Assembly: GCA_023261445.1 (NCBI GenBank)
Contig: JAHFOX010000008.1
Location: forward strand, 1 to 41,585
Reading direction: 5' to 3'
Length of the DNA stretch: 41,585 nucleotides
DNA from: Planctomycetota bacterium
GTDB lineage: Bacteria > Planctomycetota > Brocadiia > Brocadiales > Brocadiaceae
This document shows, piece by piece, positions 1,246 through 22,251 of this stretch; position 1 is the first letter of the stretch, and each line of letters opens with the position of its first letter. A model generated the notes under the pieces. That model saw only the letters and a program-made list of their open reading frames with translations, did no database searches and was not told the origin of the DNA. The translations under genes and the position numbers were made by a program.

Positions 1246-1566
1246 CTAATCCTTTGCAAAAACATCTATCCCTACAGCACGTCCAATCTCTCTGTTGAGT
1301 TCTGTCATTCCGGTATTCCTGCTTTCTTGCTGTGTAGGAATAATGATTATAGCCTCACCTGTTTTATTCCTTAATTGGGTAATAGCATCAAGGCATTGTT
1401 CTGCCATATTCTCTGCAATCAATATAATTCCAACCAAAGGATCCTGTGTTATTTTTCTAAGCACAGAAATTGTTTCAACTGCTGTTTTAACTGGTTCAAT
1501 TTCAACTCCAATGCTTTGGTACGGCAATATGTGTTCTCTTTCACCAACAATAACTATTTTATACAT
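1246..1566 (-). CDS. ntpG: V-type ATP synthase subunit F
   Basis: A 106-residue protein with the small alternating beta/alpha (Rossmann-like) fold of the A/V-ATPase F subunit (NtpG in Enterococcus). It opens with MYKIVIVGERE and has the family hydrophobic strands VGIILIAE and AIIIIPT. This subunit sits in the central stalk and binds the D subunit, coupling rotation to the catalytic head. Its ATG overlaps the end of the C-subunit gene by 8 bases, so the two are probably translationally coupled. It is the last recognisable ATPase gene in the operon here. The A, B and D genes that normally follow F are not next to it. Confidence 0.85.
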   Translation of the reverse strand: MYKIVIVGEREHILPYQSIGVEIEPVKTAVETISVLRKITQDPLVGIILIAENMAEQCLDAITQLRNKTGEAIIIIPTQQESRNTGMTELNREIGRAVGIDVFAKD

Positions 1567-2599
1567 AAGCTTTCCGTAATCGTTCTTTTAATAAATTGTT
1601 TCCAATCTTATGTACCTTTCCACCCAACACTAATTTTAAATTAAACACCTCTGTAGTAAGACCACATAGATACCCAAATACCCTTTCCGGTCCGAAAGGC
1701 GTGTATTTTACAGGACGTATCATGTCCAGCAAATAGTTGTCAGTTTCCACTTCGTATTGAAAAGAAATATTTTTGGATGTGTTTGATGATATCATGCGAA
1801 CAAGCATTTCGTTTTCTTGTAGAGACGCATTACAATGCGTTTCTACAATAATTTCGCGAAATGTCTTCTCAGATGTCCGTACTGTATCTGTAAATAATTT
1901 ACGAAGCATGTGGCACTGGTCAAATCCCATCAAAAAATATTTATTCAAAAGATTTATATCAAGCTTTAAAGCCATTGCACGCCGTAGCACCTCAAACCCT
2001 TTAATGAACTGGTAAGCCATCATATATCTCTTAATAATTTCAACCTTTATTGTTTTGTGAATATTTTCGATATACTTTAAATAAGCACCGTCTATTATCA
2101 AATCAATTACAAAAGGCAATTCCTCCTTTTTCACAGCAGTCATACTTTTTTTAGACAGCGAAACCGTTTCCTTAATTACTTCAGGTAAAGAAACCGCTTC
2201 GTCATTCCATGTATCATCATATTTATTCTTATCAATGGTCTCTCTGGAATATTTATCTACGCCTGTGCCGCAGGCTTTGAGCTTTACAAAATTCTTTAGA
2301 TTAAGGATGTCATTTTTTATCAGGAAGAAGTCGCAAACAGTGCTATCGGGCGTTAAAGACCGTATCTCATACAATCTGGTATAATAATAGTCGTCAAGCA
2401 ACGTCTCAAATTCGTACAAATGCTTAACGTGTGTAAAATAAGTTTTTAAAGTGGTATTATTCAAATTTATTAACATATCCCCAAGAACATTGCTTGATAG
2501 TAATCTATCAAAGAATATTGTGTTGAGTAGCTTACACTCAAGAACATTAACAAGTCCTGACACATAACACCATTCATGATGAAGCGCACCATTTCCCAT
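1559..2599 (-). CDS. ntpC: V-type ATP synthase subunit C (V0 d/AC39 type)
   Basis: A 346-residue protein matching the A/V-ATPase C subunit, the funnel-shaped helical adaptor between the membrane rotor ring and the central stalk. The near-invariant opening (HHEWCYVSGLVNVLE) and the C-terminal segment with FGPERVFGYL followed by EVFNLKLVLGGK are family-like. The latter resembles the conserved tail in which Arg and Glu residues contact the K ring. Gene order (K-E-C-F) supports the call. Oddity: codons for about residues 251-261 (ETHCNASLQ) coincide with a 32-bp near-perfect palindrome at 1817-1848 that also occurs, degraded, near 3896. This looks like a dispersed repeat inserted in frame. The gene is still open throughout, so the product is probably made with a small extra loop. 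Confidence 0.85.
   Translation of the reverse strand: MGNGALHHEWCYVSGLVNVLECKLLNTIFFDRLLSSNVLGDMLINLNNTTLKTYFTHVKHLYEFETLLDDYYYTRLYEIRSLTPDSTVCDFFLIKNDILNLKNFVKLKACGTGVDKYSRETIDKNKYDDTWNDEAVSLPEVIKETVSLSKKSMTAVKKEELPFVIDLIIDGAYLKYIENIHKTIKVEIIKRYMMAYQFIKGFEVLRRAMALKLDINLLNKYFLMGFDQCHMLRKLFTDTVRTSEKTFREIIVETHCNASLQENEMLVRMISSNTSKNISFQYEVETDNYLLDMIRPVKYTPFGPERVFGYLCGLTTEVFNLKLVLGGKVHKIGNNLLKERLRKAYV
1817..1848. repeat. Palindromic dispersed repeat inside ntpC
   Basis: Two 15-base arms, TTGTAGAGACGCATT and AATGCGTTTCTACAA, separated by 2 bases. They are perfect inverted repeats except for one G-T wobble position. The same leading motif TGTAGAGACGC recurs at 3896-3906. On the minus strand the repeat is translated as part of ETHCNASLQ in the V-ATPase C subunit. 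In other frames it reads RDALQCVS, a peptide I recall from many unrelated database ORFs derived from this repeat family. Confidence 0.8.
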
Positions 2600-2676: not shown

Positions 2677-3273
2677 TTACAATTCAGTACAAGATAGTTG
2701 CAGAAATTCATCTAACTCTGGGACTAAAGTAGTACGAAGGCTTTTTACAAGGGTATCAAGGGAATAGTCAATTTCGTAATGTTCCGTCTTTACAATAAAA
2801 CCGCCTTTTATTTCAAGCGTAGTGTTATTTAAAATAAGCCTTGTTTTTCTATTTTTATTAATAGCATCAATGAAATCGCTCGTTATTCGTTTTAAATCCC
2901 TTGTATTAACAAACAATTGCCCATCTAAATAATCGGGTATATTTGCCAGCCATTTTCTTACAAGTGCCAGATATTCATCGTCAGGGAGTGATTGTATCCG
3001 GTTTACGGCACGAGCCAGAACATCATCAATTATATTGTTTTTAATCTCCAACAATTTCATTTTATAATCTCTTTTTAATGTGCTTAAACTTCTTTCCATA
3101 TCTTCTTTGATTCGTTTTTCTTCTTTTTGCAAAAATTCTTGGGATTGTTTTTCCAAGGAAGCCTTGGCTGCATTTACTTGAGTACGAAATTGCTCATCCG
3201 CCGTTCGGACTATTTGTTCCGCCTCTTTTTGGGCATTCCCGATGATATGATTTTTAATATGTTCTATAGACAT
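2677..3273 (-). CDS. ntpE: V-type ATP synthase subunit E (peripheral stalk)
   Basis: About 198 residues. The N-terminal half is a long charged coiled coil (IIGNAQKEAEQIVRTADEQF onward to about residue 90), followed by a compact C-terminal domain ending near ELDEFLQLSCTEL, as in the E subunit of the peripheral stator. E pairs with the G/H subunit to hold the catalytic head still. I chose ATG at 3273 because family members start with the MSIEHIKNHI-like helix. A TTG at 3315, directly abutting the stop codon of ntpK, would add 14 residues and cannot be excluded. No clear ribosome binding site precedes either start. The E-to-C gap is 77 bases. Confidence 0.82.
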   Translation of the reverse strand: MSIEHIKNHIIGNAQKEAEQIVRTADEQFRTQVNAAKASLEKQSQEFLQKEEKRIKEDMERSLSTLKRDYKMKLLEIKNNIIDDVLARAVNRIQSLPDDEYLALVRKWLANIPDYLDGQLFVNTRDLKRITSDFIDAINKNRKTRLILNNTTLEIKGGFIVKTEHYEIDYSLDTLVKSLRTTLVPELDEFLQLSCTEL

Positions 3274-3315
3274 GATGGCAAGTGAAGTTAATTGTGAAAC
3301 GGCAATTTTATACAA

Positions 3316-3858
3316 TCACCAAATTTCAGTGCCTGTTCTTGGAGAATATGAAATCCCCCCTTCTTTTGTCAGCCAGGTAATTAATAAAATGGAAATTAAC
3401 AAGGCAATGACAGCATAAGTTTCTACGAGCGCCGGGATCAGAATAGCACGCCCCCCCTCCTCAGGTTGTTTTCCAGTAAGGTTAATAGCGGCTGTAGCTG
3501 CCTTGGCTTGCATAAGCGCAGTAAAATATTCTACTATACCCATACATATTGCAATAGCCAGAATGGCGAGACCAACAGAAGGAGATATACTTATGTGTCC
3601 AGCAATAACCCCTGTTCGAAGCGCTATCATAATAGCGCCAATAAATCCATAAAAACCCTGTGTGCCGGGCAAAGCCATGAGCACCAGCATTTTCCCAAAT
3701 AGTTCGGGTTTTTCTGATAAAACACCAGCCGCCTGAGATGAGGCAATCAAAATACCCTTCGCAGAACCCAAACAGCTAACCGTGACTACTATAATTGCAC
3801 CAAGGATAGCCCATCCACAACCCGTTTGCACAAAATACAGTTTTAGTAATTCAATCAT
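3316..3858 (-). CDS. ntpK: V-type ATP synthase subunit K (rotor ring proteolipid)
   Basis: A 180-residue, four-helix membrane protein made of two fused hairpins, as in V-type rotor subunits. The first hairpin carries LPGTQGFYGFI (residues 63-73) and no acidic ion-binding residue. The second carries PALVETYAV with the essential Glu146. All five side-chain positions that bind Na+ in Enterococcus hirae NtpK have matching residues here: Leu63, Thr66, Gln67, Gln117 (in TALMQAKAA) and Glu146. Na+ coupling is therefore plausible. I chose ATG at 3858 because AGGAG lies just upstream. A longer reading to 3918 would translate a dispersed repeat. Confidence 0.9.
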   Translation of the reverse strand: MIELLKLYFVQTGCGWAILGAIIVVTVSCLGSAKGILIASSQAAGVLSEKPELFGKMLVLMALPGTQGFYGFIGAIMIALRTGVIAGHISISPSVGLAILAIAICMGIVEYFTALMQAKAATAAINLTGKQPEEGGRAILIPALVETYAVIALLISILLITWLTKEGGISYSPRTGTEIW

Positions 3859-3895: not shown

Positions 3896-3925
3896 TGTAG
3901 AGACGCTTTGCGATGCATCGCTACA
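3896..3925. repeat. Degraded copy of the TGTAGAGACGC palindromic repeat
   Basis: TGTAGAGACGC is followed by TTT, the 12-bp palindrome GCGATGCATCGC and TACA. Compared with the intact copy at 1817-1848, the right arm has lost the bases that would pair with GAGAC. It lies between ntpI and the chosen start of ntpK, inside the transcribed region, and its presence argues against the longer N terminus for NtpK. Confidence 0.65.
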
Positions 3926-3944: not shown

Positions 3945-5972
3945 CTAATGTTTATTTTGAAATATTTTTACAATAGTTATACGCTGGCTGCTAAAACCAT
4001 AAGGTTGGAATTTCTGGGCGCCACCTTCATAGAACCTTCCAAATAATTCAAGGAAGATTAATCGTGCGGGATGGACAAAGGCACTAAGAATACTCATAAC
4101 AAAATTGAATGAATGACCAGAAATCAAAATGATAATAAACAGTACAGTGCCAATCAATGTACCTGTTTTGAATACCCCCGCTATAATGTTAAATGACATG
4201 CCTACAATTGACGTTGTAAGGCTAAGCGCCAAGATACGTGTATAAGACAGAATATCCCCAATAAAACTAACACAACCATAAGTTCCAACAATGCCATACA
4301 AACTGATAATCCCTGTAAATATTTTGCCTGCAATCCCTTTTGCATTTCGTCCTTGTGTAGAAATCAACCCAATGGCACCAATAACGGTCAAATATTTTCC
4401 AACGCTAACAATGACAGCGGGTATATTTAGAAATATTGTTGATACCAATATCAAGAATCCGGGTAACGCAATAAGCCATAGCAATCCATCGCAAACGGCA
4501 TTCACAATATTTTTTCTTCTAAATTCTCCATACATCTTAAGTACTATACCATAAAATTGATTCAATATGCCAAGTCCTATAGACAAAAGAAGGGCTATAA
4601 CAGGTTTTGAGAGCGGGTCAAGAATCGTGAATTTTTCTTTTAATTTCAACAAAATGTTATTCTCGCCTAAATATGCCTGATTATACAAATCTCCTGCCCA
4701 GCCGCCAGTCAGAGCGCCAAATATGATCGTACTTATGCCAGCATAAAAAAAAAGTTTTAAGAAGTTAGACAACGCCTCAGACTTTTTATATTTTCTAATC
4801 ATCCATGCGGAAAAAGCAATTAGACACATACCGTAAAACACATCGCCAAAGCAAATGCCGAATAAGATTAAAAAAGATACCGTGATAAAAGGTGTTGGAT
4901 CGAATGTAAAATAATTGGGCAATCCAAACATATTAATCAATAACTGGGCAGGCTTTAAAAATCTATTCAACGAAATGCAGACAGGTACTTTATCCGATGG
5001 CGAAGGCTCTTCATAAATAACCGATGCCTGTGGAAACTCATTGTAAAGTAATTTATCAAGCATGGGTTTGTCTTTTATTTTAACATAACCAATCAGTACA
5101 AATGTCTTTTTGGACATAACACACCTGCGTTGGTCAACCATTTTATTTTTTTCGTTTTCCCAATACCCCAACAATATCTCCATAGAATGCCACTCTTTTG
5201 ATAATTCGCGAAAGCGACGTTGAATTAGACTAAGTTCGTGAACTATGTTGGAATTTTCCATACCTAGTTTATCAATATGGTCTTTTACATTGCCAGATAT
5301 GGCAGGTAATGGTGTTTCTTTTAAATCATATTTTGAAAAAATTCTTAGTGCTGCATCTTTGCTATCATTTAGATATGCAAAGAGGACTTTCAACTCCTTT
5401 TCGGTTTTTGAAACAATCTGCCATGCAAGGAATTCATTTGCAGATGTATCCATTAAAAACCTGTTCCATCGTGACTTAGACAAACAACAGAAATAAAACG
5501 CAGCTTGCCTTATATTACGAATTTGTGTAACTTGATCTGACAGCGGTAAAAAGTCGGAAAGTTTGTCTGCTTCTTCACGTAGCTGTTTCAACCTCTTTTG
5601 GAGATTTATGTACTTTTCATGCTGATTCTTACATTCTTTGTAAATAGACTCTATGTCTATACTGGAAAGTGTTTGGTCTAATTCCTTACTGGTAATTTGC
5701 AGTGGAATGGGGAAAATACCTTCCACGAACCCTTTCTTTTTCTGGACAAACACTTTTAGAATGGGGAGTATGTTATTCAGTTTTTGAATATTTTTTTCTA
5801 TGTCTTCGACTGTTGTGGGGAATCTATGGAAATAAGGGACAGACGAATCGTCAAGTCGGGAAAGAGTGTCTATTATATGAATAATATTCAAGTGGTAAAG
5901 CTGGCCTAGAAACCACCGGGCGTCTTCGATAGGAAGTAAAATACTTACTTTGTTAAGCCTTTCAATAGCCAT
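3945..5972 (-). CDS. ntpI: V-type ATP synthase subunit I (stator a subunit)
   Basis: A 675-residue protein with the two-part layout of the A/V-ATPase I/a subunit. The N-terminal half of about 340 residues is cytoplasmic and rich in helices and coiled coil (MAIERLNKVSILLP opening). The C-terminal half has about seven or eight membrane helices, starting with PFITVSFLILFGICFGDVFY and including the GHSFNFVMSILSAFVHPARL segment. That segment corresponds to the family region near the essential Arg of the ion half-channels. It forms the static ion path against the K ring. Its ATG is one base after the stop of the preceding stalk gene, so the two are likely coupled. Confidence 0.9.
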   Translation of the reverse strand: MAIERLNKVSILLPIEDARWFLGQLYHLNIIHIIDTLSRLDDSSVPYFHRFPTTVEDIEKNIQKLNNILPILKVFVQKKKGFVEGIFPIPLQITSKELDQTLSSIDIESIYKECKNQHEKYINLQKRLKQLREEADKLSDFLPLSDQVTQIRNIRQAAFYFCCLSKSRWNRFLMDTSANEFLAWQIVSKTEKELKVLFAYLNDSKDAALRIFSKYDLKETPLPAISGNVKDHIDKLGMENSNIVHELSLIQRRFRELSKEWHSMEILLGYWENEKNKMVDQRRCVMSKKTFVLIGYVKIKDKPMLDKLLYNEFPQASVIYEEPSPSDKVPVCISLNRFLKPAQLLINMFGLPNYFTFDPTPFITVSFLILFGICFGDVFYGMCLIAFSAWMIRKYKKSEALSNFLKLFFYAGISTIIFGALTGGWAGDLYNQAYLGENNILLKLKEKFTILDPLSKPVIALLLSIGLGILNQFYGIVLKMYGEFRRKNIVNAVCDGLLWLIALPGFLILVSTIFLNIPAVIVSVGKYLTVIGAIGLISTQGRNAKGIAGKIFTGIISLYGIVGTYGCVSFIGDILSYTRILALSLTTSIVGMSFNIIAGVFKTGTLIGTVLFIIILISGHSFNFVMSILSAFVHPARLIFLELFGRFYEGGAQKFQPYGFSSQRITIVKIFQNKH

Positions 5973-21169: not shown

Positions 21170-22251
21170 GCTTGAGCGTTACCTGAAATACCTACTGTTG
21201 AACCTTTCATATCAAATAAAATTACGCCCGTCTCAGTAGGAGCGAACGGCCGTTCGCCCTTGCTACAATATTCCAGCACCTTTTTTTCAATACTCTCAGC
21301 CACTTTATTCATTATGGATAAACTCTTGTGTCTCTTTAATACTTCAACAATTCCTTCAACGGTAGAAATCGTTTCTAACTTATCCAGCACTGCATTTGAT
21401 TGAATGTTACGTTTAATAATATCAATAAGAATATCATTGGCAGGTTTAGACACGGCGCTGTGTGTATGAAAATCACCTCTCAACAATTTGATTAATTTAC
21501 CCGGATGTCCGGCAAGTATAACTTTCTTAAAACTTCTCTCCTGAACAGCATCTAGCATAAAACCAACAAAATTGCTTATCTGAATAACCTGGTCTTTTGA
21601 AATATTAACCAGATTAAGAATAGAACGCTCACCCAGATTGCCCGGCACAAGTACCACTGTTTCAAAGCCAATACCCTTAGCAATATCAAGTCCGCATAAT
21701 AAGGAGGTCTTAAAGGCATCCTCTGACATTGGCCTGACAATGCCTGTTGTACCAATAATGGATATACCACCAATGATACCAAGCTTAGGATTAAACGTCT
21801 TCTCTCCTAACACTTTTCCGTTGGGTACAGAGATTACAACTTTTGCCCCACTGTTATTTCCTGTAATCTCTCTTACTGCATTTTCAATCATCATCCTTGG
21901 TACAGGATTGATTGCCGCATTACCTACCGGCACTTGCAACCCGGGTTTTGTCACCCTACCTATGCCTTCGCCGCCGTCAATCTCTACTGTACCACTAATA
22001 CTACGCTCAACTCGCGCATAAATATGGCATCCGTTGGTCACATCGGGGTCATCTCCCGAATCCTTCTGGACAGCACACTCTGAAAAATGTTCAGACAATT
22101 GTTTAAACAGAACTTTAGTTTTAAATTTTATACCACTCGGAGTATCAATTTCTACTTCATCTGGAATACTGCCTTTAAATAACCCGATAGCCGCTGCTTT
22201 AGCCGCTGCGGTTGCACAACTTCCTGTTGTATAGCCAGTTCGTAAGGACAT
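21139..22251 (-). CDS. cbiD: Cobalt-precorrin-5B C(1)-methyltransferase
   Basis: A 370-residue enzyme, full length for CbiD, which methylates C1 in the anaerobic cobalamin pathway. It starts with MSLRTGYTTGSCATAAAKAA, the family hallmark, and has VEIDGGEGIGRVTKPGLQVPVG and ILAGHPGKLIKLLRGDFHTHS. Oddity: near the C terminus the peptide GERPFAPT (about residues 330-337) is encoded by a palindromic dispersed repeat at 21236-21266, apparently inserted in frame between the last helices and the final strand. The ORF continues to a family-like end, so the protein is probably still functional. Confidence 0.93.
   Translation of the reverse strand: MSLRTGYTTGSCATAAAKAAAIGLFKGSIPDEVEIDTPSGIKFKTKVLFKQLSEHFSECAVQKDSGDDPDVTNGCHIYARVERSISGTVEIDGGEGIGRVTKPGLQVPVGNAAINPVPRMMIENAVREITGNNSGAKVVISVPNGKVLGEKTFNPKLGIIGGISIIGTTGIVRPMSEDAFKTSLLCGLDIAKGIGFETVVLVPGNLGERSILNLVNISKDQVIQISNFVGFMLDAVQERSFKKVILAGHPGKLIKLLRGDFHTHSAVSKPANDILIDIIKRNIQSNAVLDKLETISTVEGIVEVLKRHKSLSIMNKVAESIEKKVLEYCSKGERPFAPTETGVILFDMKGSTVGISGNAQAWLNITKIRS
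21236..21266. repeat. Palindromic dispersed repeat inside cbiD
   Basis: A perfect 16-bp palindrome GCGAACGGCCGTTCGC (21242-21257) lies inside an outer pair GTAG...CTAC. This matches what I recall of a repeat with consensus GGGGCGAACGGCCGTTCGCC, dispersed in several bacterial genomes. It is much more GC-rich than the surrounding gene and encodes GERPFAPT on the minus strand. Confidence 0.75.

Follow-up and report, generated by a model that had tools for sequence, protein, structure and literature searches.

The gene for subunit C of a V-type ATPase, ntpC, carries within its reading frame a palindrome which, by its structure, its dispersion and the transposase-linked palindromes of related genomes, is a double-foot REP of the TnpA-REP subclass 2.4 kind. 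The genomes display an insertion with its reading frame open, the dispersed class to which it belongs and a link between that class and a transposase subclass; probably, an element of the subclass 2.4 type was pasted into the gene in a Brocadia-family ancestor and later decayed or was replaced. In the window, the whole 41.6-kb stretch of DNA that was analysed, the palindrome and the operon around it are placed as follows.

1246-1566, minus strand: ntpF-like small subunit adjoining ntpC, named by its position, the operon order being conserved in relatives
1559-2599, minus strand: ntpC, V-type ATPase subunit C, 346 residues, host of the insertion (PF01992, E = 1.4e-22)
1818-1847, no strand assigned: double-foot REP palindrome TGTAG...CTACA, in frame in ntpC, residues 252-261
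2677-3315, minus strand: ntpE, V-ATPase subunit E (PF01991)
3316-3858, minus strand: ntpK, proteolipid subunit (PF00137)
3896-3925, no strand assigned: second, degraded copy of the palindrome in the ntpI-ntpK gap, 10/14 core pairs
3945-5972, minus strand: ntpI, V-ATPase subunit I (PF01496)

The palindrome, TTGTAGAGACGCATTACAATGCGTTTCTACAA, occupies 32 nt at 1817-1848 and forms 14 of 16 Watson-Crick pairs. No other 32-nt stretch in the window is paired to this degree and none arose in 20 shuffles, confirming the near-perfect inverted repeat reported in the first-pass annotation. The 28-nt core, GTAG-N20-CTAC, lies at 1819-1846, with the pairing reaching out to 1817 and 1848. RNA folding gave -19 kcal/mol (z = -8.1) for the plus strand and -15 kcal/mol (z = -5.0) for the minus strand. 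Read in frame within ntpC, the palindrome gives residues 252-261 of NtpC, where the peptide VETHCNASLQ is predicted to form part of the protein; the earlier in-frame reading as ETHCNASLQ at about residues 251-261 thus stands, with its span corrected. The degraded copy noted at 3896 is also real. From matching starts of homologues the start of ntpK is likely the ATG at 3858, which would place this copy upstream of ntpK and, with the end of ntpI at 3945, outside both genes. The same ntpI-ntpK gap in a related genome (G005) holds a near-perfect copy with 13/14 pairs, and palindromes of the same general class are seen in the I-K, K-E and E-C gaps of the operon in several genera (loci L167, L168, L170, L172 and L181).

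Alignment of NtpC from related genomes identifies residues 252-261 as an insertion. Extra residues are present at this site in all ten of the family members that cover it, from six genera, and the seven homologues from four other families of the order that aligned in full are gapped there. The net gain ranges from 4 to 11 codons, since the residues on either side vary in length as well. Homologues with the same residues at equal length but no DNA palindrome were looked for; those of the other families are without the roughly ten residues, and the members of the family have the residues in common and in most cases the DNA palindrome too. With all ten covering members, across six genera, carrying it, the alignment marks the insertion as old and common to the Candidatus Brocadia family rather than newly acquired by this genome. 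A single origin is favoured, and the boundaries of the insertion are approximate, since the empty site is seen only in other families, in homologues with 29-38% identity. Modelling of NtpC by AlphaFold2 with four sequences reached a pLDDT of 37, too low to be used, and the best match to a solved subunit C structure covers profile positions 8-134 only. NtpC was matched in only 23 of 59 related genomes, a patchy presence from which the V-ATPase seems dispensable in the Brocadia family, so that the earlier description of ntpC as an essential gene was not borne out.

A second kind of insert, repeat-like in character, also seems to be translated in relatives; its peptides are of the SPPSQGG/DEG type, and TTTCCCCCCCTTCGCAAGGGGGGGATGAAGGG is an example of the underlying DNA. 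These inserts lie in NtpC of loci L010 (G023) and L011 (G005), where they fall between positions 152 and 158 of the window's protein, and in CbiD at about residue 285 in L255, L256 and L267; the window's own NtpC and CbiD are without them.

In the window's own genome GTAGAGACGC occurs 12 times, and this genome-wide count, which the first-pass annotation had proposed, resolves to seven palindromic copies, of which two are intact. Searching with the class pattern GTAGRGRCGY-N-RCGYCYCTAC revealed intact copies in 31 of 33 genomes of the family, at 0-52 per genome, with none for the same pattern reversed, which served as the control; across the order the class was found in 48 of 62 genomes. The dispersed copies are mostly intergenic, and identical 28-mers are scattered within the same genomes. 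Copies in frame are also found in genes with clear Pfam domains, namely those for HsdR (L054), HsdM (L058), a radical SAM protein (L115), a histidine kinase (L134) and a sensor protein (L135). The radical SAM gene is, from these comparisons, a recent analogue with empty sites that allows a clean comparison: VGAYGNTPLH is inserted in G012, with a near copy in G032, for a net eight codons, and 28 other genomes are without the insert. A palindrome-like sequence in cbiD of the window, GTAGGAGCGAACGGCCGTTCGCCCTTGC at 21236-21263 with 11/14 pairs, was rejected as a further copy; most family members have a similar length there with no palindrome, and its resemblance to a worn palindrome is probably due to chance.

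The link to a transposase was not apparent from the best-scoring PF01797 matches, where the top 30 loci seemingly belong for the most part to other Y1 subclasses and only two have palindromes; it emerged after some translated copies were noticed within transposase ORFs. Thirty RAYT-like loci were then gathered by a search with a Y1_Tnp transposase gene containing a translated copy, a query that is biased in holding one such peptide, although only the eight nearest matches share that peptide. GTAG..CTAC palindromes were present in 24 of these loci, 41 in total against 0.2 in dinucleotide shuffles, and in 2/30 of the other Y1_Tnp loci with the best scores and 1/30 control loci. A palindrome lies within the ORF in 25 of the 30 and one flanks it within 400 bp in 17. 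The inside copies are 94% identical to their own flanks and 52% identical to the flanks of other loci. They mostly sit right behind the MPNHxH motif and are read in different frames to give different peptides (VETGLKPVST, VGAGFKPAPT, RDTVHRVPT and VGAIHELPLQ). NH[LIVF]H was found in 27 of the 30 loci and WQ and YIxxNP in most; as judged by motifs, not by a subclass HMM, some loci carry an L within the HuH motif or a different residue ahead of NP. No relative was seen in which the transposase is accompanied by the exact ntpC palindrome; G015 (L207) comes nearest, with 26 of 28 letters. The window's own genome, which is 91% complete, gave no match to the subclass 2.4 transposase query, and its single Y1_Tnp protein is unrelated and has no palindrome nearby. 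With no subclass 2.4 transposase found there, the element in ntpC is probably a relic in this genome.

Subclass 2.4 of the TnpA-REP proteins (RAYT group 4 of Bertels) is described as having a double-foot REP, with the palindrome both flanking the tnpA-REP gene and in frame inside it, 5' GT[AG]G and 3' C[TC]AC ends, and the protein motifs NH[IFV]H, WQ and YIxNNP (Quentin et al. 2018, PMC6006769). The long ntpC palindrome has the corresponding ends, GTAG...CTAC at 1819-1846, and belongs to a dispersed palindrome within the 20-40 bp range of such elements, with its seven copies in the own genome and its presence in 31/33 family genomes. The NHxH, WQ and YIxxNP motifs appear in the loci of relatives and it is there that palindromes of the class both flank the subclass 2.4-type transposase genes and lie in frame inside them, for which reason the ntpC palindrome is filed as a double-foot REP. 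It differs from the published elements in lying in a V-ATPase gene, family-wide, in a genome where no cognate transposase was found; a cognate transposase in the same genome is usual, but is outside the published definition of the subclass.

Palindromes in frame within proteins are already known from Rickettsia, from intragenic REPs and from the tnpA-REP genes themselves (PMC2229807, PMC3733652, PMC6006769). The Rickettsia palindromic elements, or RPEs, were presented as selfish palindromic DNA translated in conserved proteins (Ogata et al. 2000, reviewed in PMC2229807), and one RPE-bearing product, Gmk, has been shown to be translated and active (PMC2229807). While the ntpC palindrome shares with them in-frame translation within a conserved protein, its GTAG/CTAC ends and its 28-30 bp, the features by which it was judged, place it outside the RPE family. 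Classical RPEs are longer, at about 100-150 bp. They are also rickettsial, and the short RPE-4 and RPE-6 are of the CGTC class, not GTAG. Closer in form are the GTAG/CGTC REPs that, in the main text sections of Di Nocera et al. 2013 (PMC3733652), lie wholly within ORFs of several species and add residues with the frame unbroken, as the ntpC copy does, and whose super-families include members from Planctomycetes. In contrast to the ntpC palindrome, their GTAG motif is unpaired at one end only, and in those sections the cases are mostly given per species, many in DNA-repair genes, with ntpC unnamed. The first-pass annotation had called a translated palindrome of this kind unusual; its reading holds in that a conserved V-ATPase subunit does contain, as an insertion translated in frame, a palindrome of a dispersed and mobile type, but in the light of the RPEs, the intragenic REPs and the tnpA-REP copies such a case is not unprecedented. 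An in-frame insertion this old and well kept is, on the other hand, uncommon. The searchable literature, with PMC3733652 covered in its main text, gave no report of a palindrome in a V-ATPase gene or of a family-wide one with subtype switching, and a search for GTAGAGACG together with palindrome gave nothing relevant.

Two types of palindrome occupy the site in ntpC, each matching a dispersed subtype. GAGACGC...GCGTCTC is found in g1, G025 and G007 and, with one paired change, in G005, and GGGGCGT...ACGCCCC in g11, G023 and G002. The first is translated as VETHCNASL and the second as VGAYCNTPL, the protein letters differing where the palindrome is kept. Pairing is at least 13/14 in five of the ten ntpC copies and has fallen to 9-10 pairs in three. 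Monophyly of either type was rejected (AU p = 9e-5 and 0.002) with a tree that was built from the operon proteins, leaving out the palindrome region, and in which the inner branches are weakly supported; a tree from ntpC alone gave no resolution. Over the 54 nt behind the palindrome G023, of genus g9, has 90-92% DNA identity to the g11 species, against 71-73% gene-wide, and the value for its genus mate G025 over the same 54 nt is 56%. As measured in 54-nt windows, the excess identity ends about 75 nt downstream of the start of the palindrome. A tract of about 80 nt that includes the palindrome seems to have been exchanged between G023 and g11. Most of the genomes carrying ntpC are drafts, each in tens to hundreds of contigs. 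Chimeric assembly is an unlikely cause of the G023 tract because the similarity regains the expected pattern past it, but the genomes compared are drafts in which contamination reaches 6%. One contig, at its start (L174, G014:C53), ends within ntpC at the position of the palindrome, NtpC residue 250, the kind of break that a repeat disrupting assembly would produce. G037, a genome from a different family within the order, has a palindrome of the GGGGCGT type in ntpC (L024:1874-1901), near codon 124 of the part that matched; it is in a different frame, with the peptide RGVLQYAPT, and the contig stops shortly beyond. This is apparently an independent hit in the same gene.

These comparisons suggest that the palindrome in ntpC was apparently exchanged or renewed rather than simply inherited, with recombination, conversion or renewed insertion as candidate routes for the replacement of the tract. 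Separate insertions of REPs by lineage at the same hot spot, instead of one ancestral insertion followed by exchange, would likewise give two types that each match a dispersed subtype, neither of them monophyletic. The palindromes that recur in the operon gaps and the one elsewhere in ntpC of G037 fit such a history, for which the REPs at about the same recB site in two Xanthomonas species, given in the main text sections of PMC3733652, provide a parallel. It is nevertheless unlikely, as the codon and phase are the same in all ten family members and the downstream flank goes with the type, as shared descent or exchange of a tract would give.

Less probable again is that the hairpin has been kept for a role in the ntpC mRNA or as a DNA site, for example in tuning expression of the operon, with pairing selected through compensatory changes. 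The fold is stable, five of the copies keep nearly all of their pairs, and the alignment contains paired changes in four pairs, with more paired cells than in shuffles. Those changes are, however, mostly the difference between the two types and amount to few events, not many. Since the downstream flank switches with the type, in-place compensatory mutation was rejected as the main source of the two types; the three decayed copies and the dispersal of the same palindrome at unrelated places also speak against a kept hairpin. That a conserved protein motif is palindromic through chance of codons, as the middle C and N common to most family members might suggest, has next to no likelihood when identical 28-mers are dispersed, mostly between genes, in the same genomes, which already refutes it, and when the residues are absent from other families and vary between types while the palindrome stays.

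For the preferred reading, an ancestral insertion of a subclass 2.4-type REP followed by decay or replacement, a plausible course of events can be outlined. A Y1/HUH transposase of subclass 2.4 would move the non-autonomous REP as single-stranded DNA; transfer of a single strand is what experiments in vitro with other TnpA-REP proteins point to (PMC8266576). One copy would have landed in a permissive loop of ntpC in the ancestor of the Brocadia family, the gene remaining in frame and gaining about ten residues, as could be expected of an element of about 30 bp with two of three frames open on either strand. The protein presumably tolerates the addition in a putative variable loop, given that the flanking residues are variable in length and the inserted residues differ by lineage. 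Afterwards the copy would have partly decayed in some lineages, and in others a tract with another palindrome subtype would have replaced it by recombination or conversion. It is possible, although we put it forward only tentatively and think it rather less likely than its contrary, that the translated REP has been kept palindromic at its fixed codon across the family by repeated renewal, through exchange of tracts, conversion from dispersed copies or re-insertion swapping the subtypes, such that the copying of DNA, not the function of the protein, dictates some ten residues.

A selfish palindrome would in this way have become a lasting part of a protein in at least six genera, with a peptide that changes by lineage while the DNA palindrome is often constant. 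If renewal is true, this would be a coding sequence whose form follows from the copying of a mobile repeat and not from the needs of the protein, and ntpC, with its perfect, decayed and swapped copies, would provide a natural series for how REPs enter genes and persist in them.
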